A DNA stretch of 64,000 nt from contig NZ_BIFH01000026.1 of assembly GCF_003967355.1 (NCBI RefSeq), positions 124,001 to 188,000 of the forward strand, read 5' to 3'. Position 1 is the first letter of the stretch, and each line of letters opens with the position of its first letter. The position numbers and the translations under genes were made by a program. Of the stretch, positions 20,078 through 25,227 are shown in pieces. The notes below the pieces were generated by a model that ran no database searches, was not told where the DNA came from, and saw nothing but the letters and a program-made list of their open reading frames with translations. This stretch comes from Embleya hyalina. Lineage in GTDB: Bacteria > Actinomycetota > Actinomycetes > Streptomycetales > Streptomycetaceae.

Positions 20078-20626
20078 ATGCCGTCTGCGGGGTCGTCCCG
20101 ATTCGATTGGCGTCGCCTGAGGCCCGCCCGTCGGGCGCCGAACTCGGGAGGTCCGCCCCCACCGAAATCCGGGAACGGTCTGGTGATCGGGGCGGTGATC
20201 GTCGGGGTGATCGTGATCCTGGTGTGGTGGGTGCTCTCCGGCGACGACAACAAGAACGACAAGAAGAAGAACGCGTCGAGCACCGTGTCGCCCGGCGCGT
20301 CCGGGTCGGCCGACCCGTCGGCGAGGGCGAGCGGGACGGCCGTGCCCTCGCCCACCTCGACGGTGAAGATGGCGGTGATCGCGCGCCAGGCGATCGGCCT
20401 GGAAATACGGGAGAAGCCGGGCAAGGGCAAGACCGTCACCGAGGTGAGCGCGGGCACCCAACTGACCGCGACCTGCCGGGCCAAGGGCGGTGTCACCGTC
20501 TACGGCTGGCGCGGTGGCAAGAGCGACCAGTGGGTGCTGGTGACCACGAGCCAGGGCGTGGGTTACGCGCCCGAGGCGTGGTTGGAGACCACGGGGTCGG
20601 TGAAGGACCTGCTGCCCATGTGCTGA
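20078..20626 (+). CDS. Membrane-anchored protein with extracellular SH3-like domain
   Basis: The product has 182 residues: a basic, Pro-rich cytoplasmic start of about 33 residues, one membrane segment 'GLVIGAVIVGVIVILVWWVL' (about 34-53), a charged Asp/Asn/Lys patch, a Ser/Thr/Ala/Pro-rich spacer (about 65-95), and an outer domain of about 85 residues. The outer domain has the bacterial SH3 rhythm 'GLEIREKPGKGKTVTEVSAGTQLTATCRAKGG' and 'WVLVTTSQGVGYAPEAWLE'. Bacterial SH3 domains bind cell-wall peptides or other surface ligands, so a wall-associated structural or sensing role is likely. Two cysteines in the outer domain may form a disulfide. Its 3' end overlaps the convergent acyltransferase gene by 64 bp. 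AGAAGGAG precedes the ATG. Confidence 0.85.
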   Translation: MPSAGSSRFDWRRLRPARRAPNSGGPPPPKSGNGLVIGAVIVGVIVILVWWVLSGDDNKNDKKKNASSTVSPGASGSADPSARASGTAVPSPTSTVKMAVIARQAIGLEIREKPGKGKTVTEVSAGTQLTATCRAKGGVTVYGWRGGKSDQWVLVTTSQGVGYAPEAWLETTGSVKDLLPMC

Positions 20627-21918
20627 GCGTCGGGGCGCCGGTGTGGGCCGGCCGGTGTCGATCGCCGTATGGTCACCGACGCCGCCCGGCCGCCGCGCGC
20701 ACGCTCGCGGCCGATCACCCAGGGAGCGACCGGGGTTCGCGCGACCAGCCAGGCGAACCCGGCCGACCCGCCGGCGACCACGGCCACGAGCACGATGGTG
20801 TCCACCGCCGGCGACCACGGCAACGCGGCGACGAATCCGCTCAGTTCCAGCAGCCGCAGGATCATCGGGTGCACGAGGTAGACCCCGAAGGCCAGTCGCG
20901 CCCCGAGCGCGGCGGCCCGACGACCGGGCACGGGTCGGCGGGCCCGTTCCCAGCGGGTGGCCAGGGCGTACAGCGCGATCACCGCGACCGGGCCCCACAG
21001 CAGGCTCACCGGCTGGGTGGCCATCGACGCGGTCGCGGTGTCCCGGCCCCCGGCGACGGTGTGCCGGTACCAGAGCCAGGTCAGCGCGAGCATGCCGAGC
21101 GTGCCGGCCCAGACGGTCCGGGTGTGCCCGACGATCCACGCGTGGAAGGCGTCCAGGTGTACCGCCGCCAGCGCGCCGGACAGGACGAAGAACCCGTAGG
21201 TCGGCAGCAGCATCCCGCCGTGCGTGCGGTACCACTCCAGCGGGCCGCTCAGCGGTGTGGGGTGGAACAGCACCGTCAGTGCGCCGAGTTGCACCGCGGC
21301 GGTGACCACGAGCAGCGGCAGATGCCGCCCGGCGGTGGCCCGGACCAGTTTGAGGAGGAGCGGGAACAGCACCGCGATCTGGAGCGAGACGAGCAGGAAG
21401 TACAGGTGGTACCAGGACCCGCCCCAGACGATCCCGCCGCGCAGGTCGCCCAGCGCGCCGGGCAGGTCGCCGCGGATCCTCGCGTGGTCGCCCAGTGCCC
21501 AGTAGGCGGTGGACCACAGCAGATACGGCGCGCCGAGCAGCTTGAACCGCCTGCCGAGGAAGGCGCCCACGCGCAGCGGCCGGTGGTACGCGCTGTGGAA
21601 GAGCACGAAGGTGCTGACGAAGAAGAACACCGCGCGGGTGGCGTGCAGGACCAGTTGGGTGAAGGCGGGGCCCTCGCCGGGGAACGGGTAGGTCACCCCG
21701 ATGACGTGCACCACGATCACGCACAGGAAGGCGATGTCGCGGATCAGGTCGACCCGGTGCAGGTGGGGTCGGCGGCCGGTCGCGGGGGGATCGGTCCGGG
21801 CCGTCGGGCCGGCCGGCTCGGCCGGCGGGCGCGCGGCGCTCGGGGTCGAGCGGCCGGGGGCGCTCGCCGGGCGGGTGGGTCGGGTGCGCTTGTCGAAGGT
21901 GCCGAAGGAGACTGCCAT
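20563..21918 (-). CDS. Acyltransferase-3 family integral membrane protein
   Basis: This 451-residue protein has about ten membrane segments after a 50-residue Pro/Ala/Arg-rich cytoplasmic N-terminus. It starts its core with 'HLHRVDLIRDIAFLCVIVVHVIGVTYPF', matching the conserved first helix of acyltransferase-3 proteins, where the H in 'VVHVIG' is the usual catalytic histidine. 'FFFVSTFVLFHSAYHRPLRVGAFLGRRFKLLGAPYLLWS' is the second hallmark. The family moves acyl groups (acetyl, succinyl and others) onto sugars or lipids across the membrane. The C-terminal 50 residues are Arg/Ser-rich and soluble, and part of them is encoded in the overlap with the SH3 protein gene. ATG at 21918 or GTG at 21921 are both possible starts. 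Confidence 0.88.
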   Translation of the reverse strand: MAVSFGTFDKRTRPTRPASAPGRSTPSAARPPAEPAGPTARTDPPATGRRPHLHRVDLIRDIAFLCVIVVHVIGVTYPFPGEGPAFTQLVLHATRAVFFFVSTFVLFHSAYHRPLRVGAFLGRRFKLLGAPYLLWSTAYWALGDHARIRGDLPGALGDLRGGIVWGGSWYHLYFLLVSLQIAVLFPLLLKLVRATAGRHLPLLVVTAAVQLGALTVLFHPTPLSGPLEWYRTHGGMLLPTYGFFVLSGALAAVHLDAFHAWIVGHTRTVWAGTLGMLALTWLWYRHTVAGGRDTATASMATQPVSLLWGPVAVIALYALATRWERARRPVPGRRAAALGARLAFGVYLVHPMILRLLELSGFVAALPWSPAVDTIVLVAVVAGGSAGFAWLVARTPVAPWVIGRERARGGRAASVTIRRSTPAGPHRRPDAQHMGSRSFTDPVVSNHASGA

Positions 21919-22058
21919 CACCGCACGCCTGCCCCGACCGCGCCGTTCCGCTCACCGCCCGCCCGATGTTTTCCCCGGGGCCCGACCGGCGGTCGCGCCC
22001 TCCCCACCGGGTGCGAGCCGGATCGAACCGCAGGACGCGGGGTGCCACAACGCGGAAA

Positions 22059-22079
22059 GTCCATGTAGGCAGCATGGAC
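22059..22079. promoter_or_regulatory. Perfect 7-bp inverted repeat upstream of the acyltransferase gene
   Basis: GTCCATG (22059-22065) and CATGGAC (22073-22079) are exact reverse complements around a seven-base spacer. The site lies about 140 bp upstream of the acyltransferase start and about 140 bp downstream of the diterpene operon end, all on the minus strand. It could be an operator, or a weak hairpin ending the diterpene transcript. No run of U follows on the minus strand. Confidence 0.4.
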
Positions 22080-22121
22080 GTGCTTCATGAGTGAATGATT
22101 AAAGCCGTCCGAGGGTGGCCT

Positions 22122-22220: not shown

Positions 22221-23270
22221 TCAGCCGCCCGGAGTCGGATCCGGGACGAACACGGCCCGGTCCCGGTGGAAGGTCATGGTGCCGGCGGTGGAGCCGTCCC
22301 AGCCCAGGCCGCCGGGTTCGTAACGCTTGCTGACGGTGGCCCACCACAGGTTGGACGTCATCACGTGGCCGACCTCGTCGAGATAGGCGCGCATCCCCGG
22401 CTCCCCGCCGTGCGGGCCGGCCATGATCCGGTCGCGCAGGTCGAGGAACTTGCGTTCGGTGGCGTCGATCAGGCCGCAGATCTTGTTCATCGCCCCTTCG
22501 AGGTCGAGCCCTTCGGCCTCGCCGAGGTAGTAGACCAGGTTCACCCGGTCGTCCATGACCAGTTCCTTGCGGTAGGAGACCAGGTCGTTGATCAGCGTGT
22601 AGCCGTCGATCGCGGTGTCGTGGATGGCCACCATGTCGGCGGTCCGGAACGCCTCCTGGGACAGCGCCACGCCGGGCACGCCCTCCTCGGCGAACCCGAA
22701 CAACCAGCGCACCCCCAGGCTGTGCCGGCGGTCGTCCATGTACGTGTCGTAGTCGGATATCCCGGCGTCGCGCCAGTTCTCCAACTCGGTGGTGAACCCG
22801 TGTGCGAAGTCCTCCATGTAGGAGACGAATCGGATCCAGCGCGCGGGCGGCATACGCTCGCGCAACCAGGAGAAGTCCTCGCGCAGCGGGGTCGAGCCGT
22901 CCCCCCAGCCGAGCAGGTCGGCCATGAAGCGGCCGAAGACGTTGCGGGTGGCGAACGAACTGCCGCCCAGGCCCGCCTTGTCCACGAGACTGTTCTCGAT
23001 GCCGATCAGGTAGTTCATCACCTTGGCCGTGGTCAGCGCGAGTTCGTAGTCGGCGTGCGGAACGGACAACGACACCAGCAGCGTTCCGTCCACGTTCTTG
23101 TCGATCCGGGCGGCGTCGCCCGCGTAGGCGAAGCCGAGGTGGCGGTGGGCCCACCAGCGGGACTCGCGCATCAGCCGGTCCGTTTCCGGATGGAACGTCA
23201 TCGGCAACAGGTTCGCGAGCTTCGGCAGGTGGAAGCTGATCGGGAGGTCGACGACGGTCGGTGTGCTCAC
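22221..23270 (-). CDS. Class I terpene cyclase (diterpene synthase candidate) with altered aspartate-rich motif
   Basis: This 349-residue all-helical protein is of the class I terpene synthase type. The C-terminal metal motif is intact: NDLVSYRKE at about residues 228-236 fits N-D-x-x-S-x-x-x-E. R182, 46 residues before it, fits the diphosphate sensor, and R316-Y317 fits the terminal RY pair. The first metal motif, normally D-D-x-x-x-D/E, reads E92-N-S-L-V-D97, so both leading aspartates are replaced. The GTG start at 23270 overlaps the TGA of the class II cyclase gene (GTGA) and has AAAGGAG six bases upstream. The probable role is to ionise the bicyclic diphosphate made by the neighbour and cyclise or quench it. 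The product is unknown. Confidence 0.88.
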   Translation of the reverse strand: MSTPTVVDLPISFHLPKLANLLPMTFHPETDRLMRESRWWAHRHLGFAYAGDAARIDKNVDGTLLVSLSVPHADYELALTTAKVMNYLIGIENSLVDKAGLGGSSFATRNVFGRFMADLLGWGDGSTPLREDFSWLRERMPPARWIRFVSYMEDFAHGFTTELENWRDAGISDYDTYMDDRRHSLGVRWLFGFAEEGVPGVALSQEAFRTADMVAIHDTAIDGYTLINDLVSYRKELVMDDRVNLVYYLGEAEGLDLEGAMNKICGLIDATERKFLDLRDRIMAGPHGGEPGMRAYLDEVGHVMTSNLWWATVSKRYEPGGLGWDGSTAGTMTFHRDRAVFVPDPTPGG

Positions 23271-24961
23271 GCCGGGCTCCTTTCGCCGGTCTGCGTCGGG
23301 GTGTTCCTGCCCCCACCGCGCGATCCGGTGGAACCGGGCGCGGGGGCACGCAGGGCTGAGGGGTACGCCGACTGCGCGCCGGGGCCCCGCGGGGCGCTCG
23401 GGCGGCGCCTCCGGGCGGCCAGCCGACTGCCCAGGTGGCCGAGGGCGAGCAGGGTGAAGTGGTCGGCCAGGCTGGGGATCACGTACAGGAACGGCCGGGT
23501 GCCCAGCATGTCCGACACCGAGTCGATCCCGCCGTCGGCGCGTTGTGTGCTCAGCAGGTGTTCGAGGCCGCGCGCCACGGGGCGGGGGTCGGCCTGGCGG
23601 CACAGCGCGATCAGCGCGTACGCGGTGCTGATCGCGTCGCTGGGGTCGCCGGGTTGTTGGCCCCAGCCGCCGTCGGGGTTCTGCCCCTCGCGCACCGCGG
23701 TGAGCGCCCGCTTGACGGTGGCCCGGTAGGCGTCGGGGCCGCACGCGTCGGTGGCGAGCAGGGCGCGGAAGATCGCGTGGTAGCGGCTGCGGCTCCAGTC
23801 CGGGTCGAAGGTGCCGTCGACGTGCTGCGCGAAGGCCAGGAACCGGCGTGCGGCGGTGATGCGTTGCACGTGCCGGGGCGCGCGCACGCTCAGCGCGTTG
23901 ACCGCGGCCGCGGTCATGCACGCCTCCGAGGGCGCGCCCGCGATGTACGTGGGGAAACCGCCGTCGGAACCCTGGTAGGACCACAGCGCGCGCAGGCCGC
24001 CGTCGATCGCGCGCCGGTAGCGCAGCGGGTCGGTGGCGTGCAGGAACTCGATCGCCACCGAGGTGTCGTCGACGTCGGCGAGCGCCGCGGCGTCGGTGTA
24101 CGACCAGCCCCCGTCCACCCGTTGGCGCGCCGCGAGGTGGTCGCCGATCCGGCGGCGGACCTCCATCGGGGCGCCCGACGCGTCCAGCGCGACACCCGCG
24201 GTGACCGCGCACCAGGTGTCCGTGTCGGTCACGAACGGCACCCCGCCGTCCACCCGTTGATGGGCCAGCGCCTTGGCCACGCCGTTGACCAGCACTCCGT
24301 CCAGGTGCGGTCGACCGACCAGCGCGTGCAGCACCAGGAGGTGCACGAGCAGATTGCCCTCCCAGACTCCCGACACCTGCTGGGTGTCCACCAGCAGACG
24401 CACCTCGCACGCGTCGATCTGGTCGGCGTGACCGGTCAGATCGGCCGACGCGACCTTGAGCGCGATGGTCTGCACGTGCGCCCACGGGTGCAGGTTCCCG
24501 ATGTCGAACGCGCTCGGGTCGAACGGACGCCGGAGCGCGCGCCGGGGCGGGCCGAGCAGGGCCAGCACCGTTTCGAGCAGGACCCGCTTGCGCGCGTTCA
24601 GGAACGCCGGCGCCCGCTCCAGGAACCGGTCGAGCAGGGCGTCCGTGCCGTGTTCGGCGAAGTCGTCGGGGTGGCGCAAAGCGATCGTCGTGAGCAGCCG
24701 ATCGAGCGGTTCGGCGCCGTCGAGGCGGTCGGCGAGGAACCGGGCGACCCGGCGGTGGTGATCGGATTCGATCCCGGTGCGCTCCAGCAGGCGCAGCAGC
24801 AGCGCCGATTCGAGCACGCGGCTGCGGCACGGGCTGCGCACCGCCCCGTCGGGCTGCACCGAATCCGCGACCCTGCGACGCAGGCGCGCGGTGGCCACGG
24901 GGAACTCCGGCACGAACATGTCCGCAGGCCACCCGGGCATCCGGGTCTCTCGCACGCGCAT
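23267..24961 (-). CDS. Class II (protonation-type) diterpene cyclase
   Basis: The protein has 564 residues and a two-domain all-helical (beta-gamma) plan like squalene-hopene cyclase and bacterial copalyl diphosphate synthases. The catalytic acid motif D296-V-D-D299 is present, followed by T-S as in D-x-D-D-T-S/A. QW-like repeats occur throughout (Q-x-x-D-G-G-W/F-type at about 235, 280, 330, 429 and 473). No class I D-D-x-x-D is present. Such enzymes protonate GGPP and leave the diphosphate in place. The last 45 residues are Arg/Pro/Gly-rich and probably disordered. GGGGGAGG lies before the ATG at 24961. It is the first gene of a two-gene operon with the class I cyclase. Squalene-type substrates are unlikely given the partner. 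Confidence 0.88.
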   Translation of the reverse strand: MRVRETRMPGWPADMFVPEFPVATARLRRRVADSVQPDGAVRSPCRSRVLESALLLRLLERTGIESDHHRRVARFLADRLDGAEPLDRLLTTIALRHPDDFAEHGTDALLDRFLERAPAFLNARKRVLLETVLALLGPPRRALRRPFDPSAFDIGNLHPWAHVQTIALKVASADLTGHADQIDACEVRLLVDTQQVSGVWEGNLLVHLLVLHALVGRPHLDGVLVNGVAKALAHQRVDGGVPFVTDTDTWCAVTAGVALDASGAPMEVRRRIGDHLAARQRVDGGWSYTDAAALADVDDTSVAIEFLHATDPLRYRRAIDGGLRALWSYQGSDGGFPTYIAGAPSEACMTAAAVNALSVRAPRHVQRITAARRFLAFAQHVDGTFDPDWSRSRYHAIFRALLATDACGPDAYRATVKRALTAVREGQNPDGGWGQQPGDPSDAISTAYALIALCRQADPRPVARGLEHLLSTQRADGGIDSVSDMLGTRPFLYVIPSLADHFTLLALGHLGSRLAARRRRPSAPRGPGAQSAYPSALRAPAPGSTGSRGGGRNTPTQTGERSPA

Positions 24962-25227
24962 CGGTCAGCGCCTCCCCCATACGTCCTGTCGCAAGCTGTG
25001 CCGTTGTGTCGGTAGGGCGCCGAGCGGGGGTTGGGGTGACGCGATCGGGGTACTCGGCGCGGAATGCACGCCCCGGCGGATGAGCGCTCCCCGTCGCCCG
25101 GTCCGGGTGTGTTCCCATCACGAAATCACCCGAAGGTGTGAATGCGGAAGCCTGTACTCGTTTGTTGTCTGAATTGGTGAGTAATCGCCATCAAATGTGC
25201 TGGAAATGAACGGCTATTGACGGCACT
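24962..25227. promoter_or_regulatory. AT-richer leader/promoter region of the diterpene operon
   Basis: These 266 bases separate the YciI-like gene from the diterpene operon, both reading leftward. The part at about 25110-25215 is markedly AT-richer than its surroundings, with many T- and A-rich hexamers, and must hold the promoter for the class II cyclase gene. The leader would be 150 bases or more. I could not pick one convincing -35/-10 pair. The block CACC-CGAA-GGTG at about 25127-25138 can form a small hairpin. Confidence 0.4.

Follow-up and report, generated by a model that had tools for sequence, protein, structure and literature searches.

Overlapping class II and class I terpene cyclase genes in Embleya hyalina: a conserved pair with a possible two-step cyclisation

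Class II terpene cyclases of the drimenyl-diphosphate synthase family, SsDMS and CavC, turn farnesyl diphosphate (FPP, C15) into drimenyl diphosphate and have a Nudix hydrolase as their partner, according to the available sections of PMC11035983. The class I terpene synthases Bnd4 and VenA are described as enzymes of geranylgeranyl diphosphate (GGPP, C20) in the accessible parts of PMC10325987 and PMC12015392. Actinobacterial labdane-type pairs (PtmT2-type; the sat and stt clusters in the accessible portion of PMC9814573) carry neighbouring class II and class I genes, whose products cyclise sequentially. Here we analyse a class II and a class I cyclase gene that overlap in Embleya hyalina, within a 64,000-nucleotide stretch referred to as the window (positions 124001-188000 of contig NZ_BIFH01000026.1, or C26, in a genome totalling 12.05 Mb). 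The two genes are real, and the class II/class I terpene cyclase pair that they form is conserved. Its class II half is of uncommon parentage and its class I half carries an altered metal-binding motif; together they possibly encode a relay, in which the second enzyme takes up the product of the first. Feature coordinates are collected in Table 1.

The GTG start of the class I gene lies on the TGA stop of the class II gene. Six bases separate the end of its ribosome-binding site, GAAAGGAG, from this GTG, and the class II ATG (24961) is also preceded by a strong ribosome-binding site, GGGGGAGG. A preliminary description of this DNA had claimed a class II cyclase with DVDD at residues 296-299, the GTGA overlap and a strong ribosome-binding site for the second gene; the reading frame 24961..23267 (-) and the signals at the junction confirm all three. 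Pfam assigns the class II protein to SQHop_cyclase_C, above the curated cut-off, and the class I protein to Terpene_syn_C_2 (82.6 bits, cut-off 23.7). The pair occupies the same neighbourhood in all four Embleya genomes searched, with a YciI gene upstream and an Acyl_transf_3 gene downstream, and the overlap and its ribosome-binding site are kept in each of them. The two genes are probably translated together. Compared with three Embleya relatives, the class I protein is 100, 97 and 90% identical, with ratios of non-synonymous to synonymous substitution rates (dN/dS) of 0, 0.045 and 0.155; the protein of Embleya scabrispora DSM 41855 is 97% identical. The corresponding values for the class II protein are 93, 85 and 76% and 0.354, 0.223 and 0.302. 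Both genes are under purifying selection. Of the eight genes examined in each of the first two comparisons, the class I gene has the lowest dN/dS; among the seven genes of the third comparison, an enoyl-CoA hydratase gene lies below it.

The class II protein belongs to the SsDMS/CavC family. When searched with phmmer against solved structures, it matched six SsDMS-type chains at 253-260 bits, the best being a 7xq4 chain (260 bits, residues 25-509), and squalene-hopene cyclase (SHC) at 55 bits; PtmT2 and Tpn2 were not listed at E<=0.01. The structure 7XRA is SsDMS in the available part of PMC13244436, and the near-identical alignments suggest that the 7xq4 and 8zg chains are the same protein. 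A profile built from 11 class II sequences scored SsDMS at 517 bits, SHC at 102, PtmT2 (5bp8) at 33.5 and Tpn2 (7xkx) at 27.8; Rv3377c was not among the 20 matches listed for this profile at E<=0.001. Asp296 and Asp298 are invariant across the 11 aligned sequences, and the DVDD motif aligns with the DVDD of 7xq4. The window protein shares with SsDMS and CavC the class II family, the DxDD motif and 36-38% identity over about 500 residues. It differs from them in its partner, an overlapping class I synthase instead of a Nudix hydrolase, and in its position in the tree, where SsDMS and CavC form a branch of their own (100/99) apart from the clade of the window protein. That clade is supported at 100/99 when the two longest branches (SHC and a more distant class II protein encoded on contig C18 of the same genome) are left out and at 92/99 when both are included. 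It comprises 10 rows: the window protein, its three Embleya orthologues, and the proteins of NBC_01248, NBC_01450, NBC_01483, Streptomyces sp. 3211, NBC_01471 and the genome G279. In the class II proteins of NBC_01248, NBC_01450 and NBC_01483 (L032, L029 and L033) we observed DTDC where DxDD is expected.

Two other identities were considered for the class II protein and rejected. Clustering with the squalene-hopene enzymes that act on C30, which the preliminary description had named as an outcome that would speak against it, was not observed: the TIGR01507 score is 46.3 bits against a cut-off of 431.1, and identity to the SHC-like protein of the same genome is 24% over 312 residues. A diterpene class II enzyme of the PtmT2/Tpn2/Rv3377c type (CPS-type) was likewise rejected on the phmmer and profile scores.

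The class I protein falls in a clade (support 100/100) that neighbours the branches of Bnd4 and VenA. Among solved structures it scores highest against 9lpb (170 bits), followed by VenA (133 bits), and it is 32% identical to Bnd4 and 28% to VenA. The motif of 9lpb is DNAMVD, which is that of Bnd4 in the accessible part of PMC10325987; 9lpb is thus probably Bnd4 or a close homologue. Grouping with sesquiterpene synthases, also put forward as potentially refuting, was not found, as the neighbouring branches are those of GGPP enzymes. The clade has seven rows, namely the window protein, three Embleya orthologues, a paralogue on contig C22 (80% identical), a protein of Streptomyces sp. 150FB (60%) and a fragment from NBC_01471. 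In a search that covered 394 genomes each from the family and from the class, with at most five candidates scored per genome, relatives at least 60% identical were found only in Embleya and in G292 (apparently the NBC_01471 genome); the 150FB protein came from a different collection.

The preliminary description had reported both motif sets. This holds for DVDD in the class II protein and for the NSE motif of the class I protein, where the diphosphate (PPi)-sensing Arg181 and the RY pair Arg316-Tyr317 are also intact; these three features are common to Bnd4 and VenA. It does not hold for the Asp-rich motif: the class I protein has no DDxxD, and ENSLVD stands in its position. The first metal-binding Asp is Glu (Glu92) in all seven rows of the clade and Asp in the other 10 rows of the alignment. 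We also sampled 50 other Terpene_syn_C_2 loci, in which the first motif residue, located by its distance from NSE, was Asp in every case. This sample was taken from high-scoring matches, and 30 of the 50 are two-domain proteins, presumably geosmin-synthase-like, of which the first domain alone was counted; it hence favours canonical motifs. Bnd4 and VenA, which act alone on GGPP, have D(S/N)xxxD together with an upstream Gln/Glu; in the window protein, by contrast, the column of VenA Gln83 holds Val60, flanked by Asn59 and Asp61, and neither Gln nor Glu is present.

The genes adjoining members of the class II family vary with the lineage. Within the clade of the window protein, a class I gene adjoins the class II gene in nine of the 10 rows, or four of five lineages, and these class I partners are drawn from three class I branches. 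The Embleya class I gene lies downstream and overlaps. On the NBC_01471 plasmid (L027 10226-13077) the class I gene also lies downstream but is broken by a single in-frame stop, and the frame of the class II reading shifts near the C-terminus; this pair appears decayed. On the NBC_01248, NBC_01450 and NBC_01483 plasmids, a class I gene of a different branch lies about 40-75 bases upstream, and a WS/DGAT acyltransferase gene with an attached carrier-protein domain follows downstream. On the plasmid of Streptomyces sp. 3211 (L028 10656-18023), a CavF-like class I gene lies 422 bases upstream of the class II gene, with a cytochrome P450 gene and dxs downstream; a further reading frame there looks ispG-like by eye, as if the locus carried its own precursor supply. 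The G279 locus (L049 9220-15376, C9) encodes an Orf2-type aromatic prenyltransferase, an aromatic-ring hydroxylase and a berberine-bridge-type FAD enzyme, and is probably a meroterpenoid cluster. A class I partner is therefore not fixed in the clade, since G279 has the prenyltransferase and two FAD enzymes instead.

Outside the clade, an overlapping gene for a HAD phosphatase, without any class I reading, was found in NBC_01650 (called by annotation and Pfam), NBC_01592 (by annotation) and NBC_00046 (by eye). On the NBC_01445 plasmid (L046 7999-10224), a HAD phosphatase is fused to an SsDMS-like class II protein in one frame of 741 residues, again with no class I reading. Overall, a profile scan of 16 class II loci showed a class I reading in 11 of them; these neighbourhood counts come from a small and uneven sample, in which 10 of 16 matching plasmid records were examined. 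The Embleya hyalina genome itself holds a second, more distant class II/class I pair of the same families on contig C18 (L034 6366-11604), together with P450 and FAD enzyme genes; the class I enzyme of that pair is nearest to 9lpb and shows the canonical DD start.

We favour, tentatively and at close to but below an even chance, the reading that the two genes encode the halves of a two-step cyclisation with GGPP as the most likely substrate. In such a relay, whose coupling, substrate length and product we infer, the class II enzyme would protonate the far end of the prenyl diphosphate, with Asp298 as the acid by analogy, and would close the first rings while retaining the diphosphate. The class I enzyme would then ionise the diphosphate by means of Glu92, the NSE motif, Arg181 and Arg316-Tyr317, and complete the skeleton. 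The GGPP would be drawn from prenyl synthases encoded elsewhere in the genome. A PF00348 prenyl synthase was not found on contig C26, and six are encoded elsewhere; this is consistent with the preliminary description, which had noted the lack of a local GGPP synthase and proposed that the substrate is supplied from outside the locus. The stt cluster differs in this respect, as it carries a GGPP synthase gene in the accessible portion of PMC9814573. The comparison with labdane-type pairs made in the preliminary description stands in part: the pairing of a class II with a class I gene is supported, and sequential cyclisation is presumed for the window pair, but its class II protein lies outside the PtmT2/Tpn2 family and belongs with the drimenyl-diphosphate synthases that use FPP.

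The relay is supported by the overlap with its ribosome-binding site, by the recurrent class II/class I neighbourhoods, by the HAD-phosphatase or Nudix partners of relatives outside the clade and by the second pair, with its P450, in the same genome. For the length of the substrate the sequence evidence is divided, the class II family being known for C15 and the class I branch for C20. By established mechanism, in bicyclised FPP the allylic double bond is consumed and a homoallylic diphosphate is left, which is not readily ionised by a class I enzyme; bicyclised GGPP keeps an allylic diphosphate that can be ionised. Drimenyl diphosphate, which has lost this bond, therefore needs a hydrolase, and the known and likely drimenyl-diphosphate synthases have hydrolase neighbours, as that need implies. 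A clade of class II enzymes whose genes adjoin class I genes is therefore more likely to work on GGPP, or to close a single ring on FPP, and GGPP is favoured since drimenyl diphosphate would offer the class I enzyme no allylic diphosphate. This chemistry and the kinship of the class I protein make C20 the likelier reading, which the kinship of the class II protein does not; given a relay, the balance tips towards a diterpene product.

Several observations weigh against a GGPP relay, and some of them speak for alternatives. SsDMS and CavC, the characterised enzymes of the class II family, use FPP, and constraint on the pair is unequal, the class I gene being held more strongly than the class II gene. 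The class I paralogue on C22 (L035 10182-11231) stands alone, no class II reading being present in the 19.9 kb around it, and so does the class I relative in Streptomyces sp. 150FB, in whose genome nothing matches the window class II protein at E<=1e-10; in the 19.9 kb stretch of the G279 clade member, in turn, a class I reading is missing. The lone class I genes on C22 and in 150FB would fit two independent cyclases in one operon, the class II enzyme turning FPP into drimenyl diphosphate or an isomer, to be processed by a phosphatase encoded elsewhere, and the class I enzyme cyclising GGPP or FPP by itself. Such independence also agrees with the kinship of the class II protein to SsDMS and CavC and of the class I protein to Bnd4 and VenA. 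In Streptomyces clavuligerus, CavC and the class I protein CavF are encoded in one cluster for which drimanes are the only products reported in the available sections of PMC11035983, whose authors suspect two separate clusters side by side. We nevertheless consider independent cyclases less likely than the relay: class I neighbours from three branches recur in four of the five lineages of the class II clade, and no Nudix or HAD phosphatase gene was seen by Pfam among 14 nearby genes of the window.

The FPP kinship of the class II family could also be accommodated by a relay in the labdane style that is one isoprene unit shorter, in which the class II enzyme closes one ring of FPP and the class I enzyme completes a sesquiterpene from the resulting monocyclic farnesyl-type diphosphate, which would have stayed allylic. 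The class I protein of the sister lineage NBC_01248 (the only one searched of the three in its branch) is nearest to germacradien-4-ol synthase, a sesquiterpene enzyme, which speaks for this shorter relay and against GGPP. We regard it as improbable, as known members of the class II family close two rings and the window class I protein is nearest to C20 enzymes. A further objection to the GGPP relay arises from Glu92, since the Asp that it replaces is required for activity in both VenA and Bnd4 in the accessible part of PMC10325987. Together with the missing Gln/Glu at the VenA Gln83 column and the presence of Glu92 throughout the clade, this would fit a class I protein that no longer ionises its substrate by the usual metal cluster and has another role, for example that of binding to the class II enzyme. 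This seems very improbable, given that the NSE motif, Arg181 and Arg316-Tyr317 are kept and that dN/dS is 0-0.16, the lowest among the genes compared in two of three comparisons. We infer that the class I enzyme is active with Glu at the first metal position.

The surroundings of the pair add a possible third gene. The preliminary description had the locus without tailoring genes; indeed no P450 gene was found within the 64-kb window, the nearest on the contig lying about 22 kb and 4 kb outside it, but the claim is uncertain in view of the Acyl_transf_3 gene, which lies about 300 bases downstream of the class I gene on the same strand. This gene is retained in all four Embleya genomes, but so are other neighbours. 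Acyltransferases of three unrelated families adjoin related synthases: Acyl_transf_3 in the window and in 150FB, WS/DGAT beside the NBC_01248, NBC_01450 and NBC_01483 genes, and PapA_C beside that of NBC_01471. We did not accept the acyltransferase as a firm member of the pair, as the Acyl_transf_3 proteins of the window and of 150FB gave no BLAST match to each other at 1e-8. It may belong to the pair, but a conserved block, possibly the promoter of the acyltransferase gene itself, separates it from the class I gene.

This block and a second one upstream of the class II gene are better conserved than their surroundings among the four Embleya genomes. The upstream block is probably a promoter or control region. 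The downstream block matches strongly at this locus only, in four Embleya among the 41 genomes searched; five weak matches (E 0.01-0.1) in these genomes were considered as second copies and rejected as chance. Rfam gave no family at gathering level for the blocks and a single match far below the gathering score, on the other strand inside the class I gene. No sigma-70-type promoter was found, and the one terminator-like site is at chance level. The class I protein had no match among phage records and the class II protein none among viral contigs. Mu-type transposase, AAA and phage-integrase genes are located 6-9 kb away from the C22 paralogue, which suggests mobility.

Table 1. Positions of the cyclase genes, their motifs and neighbouring features in the window (1-based, 64,000 nucleotides)
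Feature	Position	Strand	Remarks
Class II terpene cyclase, SsDMS/CavC (drimenyl-diphosphate synthase) family	23267..24961	-	564 aa open reading frame; kinship
DVDD motif, residues 296-299	24065..24076	-	Coordinates computed from ATG at 24961
GGGGGAGG, ribosome-binding site of class II gene	24971..24978	-	
Class I terpene synthase beside Bnd4 and VenA branches	22221..23270	-	349 aa open reading frame; kinship
ENSLVD at site of Asp-rich motif, residues 92-97	22980..22997	-	
NSE motif NDLVSYRKE, residues 228-236	22563..22589	-	
GTGA overlap, 4 bases (class I GTG start, class II TGA stop)	23267..23270	-	
GAAAGGAG, ribosome-binding site of class I gene, within class II reading frame	23277..23284	-	
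Acyl_transf_3 membrane acyltransferase, possible partner	20563..21921	-	452 aa
Conserved non-coding block upstream of class II gene	25107..25218	-	103/112 columns identical to SID3343, against 65/107 in adjoining spacer
Conserved non-coding block between class I gene and acyltransferase	22027..22105	-	65/80 columns identical to SID3343, against 54/120 just downstream

Taken together, the pair may point to a second, independent bacterial origin of the relay from class II to class I enzymes, which we put forward as possible and somewhat on the doubtful side. A branch of the drimenyl-diphosphate synthases would have exchanged its phosphatase for class I synthases of three branches, and its products would thereby have shifted from C15 alcohols to polycyclic terpenes that are probably C20, the Embleya class I enzyme bringing a new variant with Glu for the first Asp. 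In the literature searched, outside which most subscription journals lie, we found no published work on the Embleya pair, on a Glu-type first metal motif or on a C15 relay. If the relay is true, the gene beside a class II cyclase of this family, whether for a phosphatase, a Nudix hydrolase, a class I synthase or an aromatic prenyltransferase, would predict the fate of its product, and such a neighbour rule would help to read uncharacterised terpene loci. If the class I enzyme works with Glu as its first metal ligand, the motif used to call such enzymes would need revision. The pair consists of two genes only and is hence directly testable, and a new skeleton is possible.

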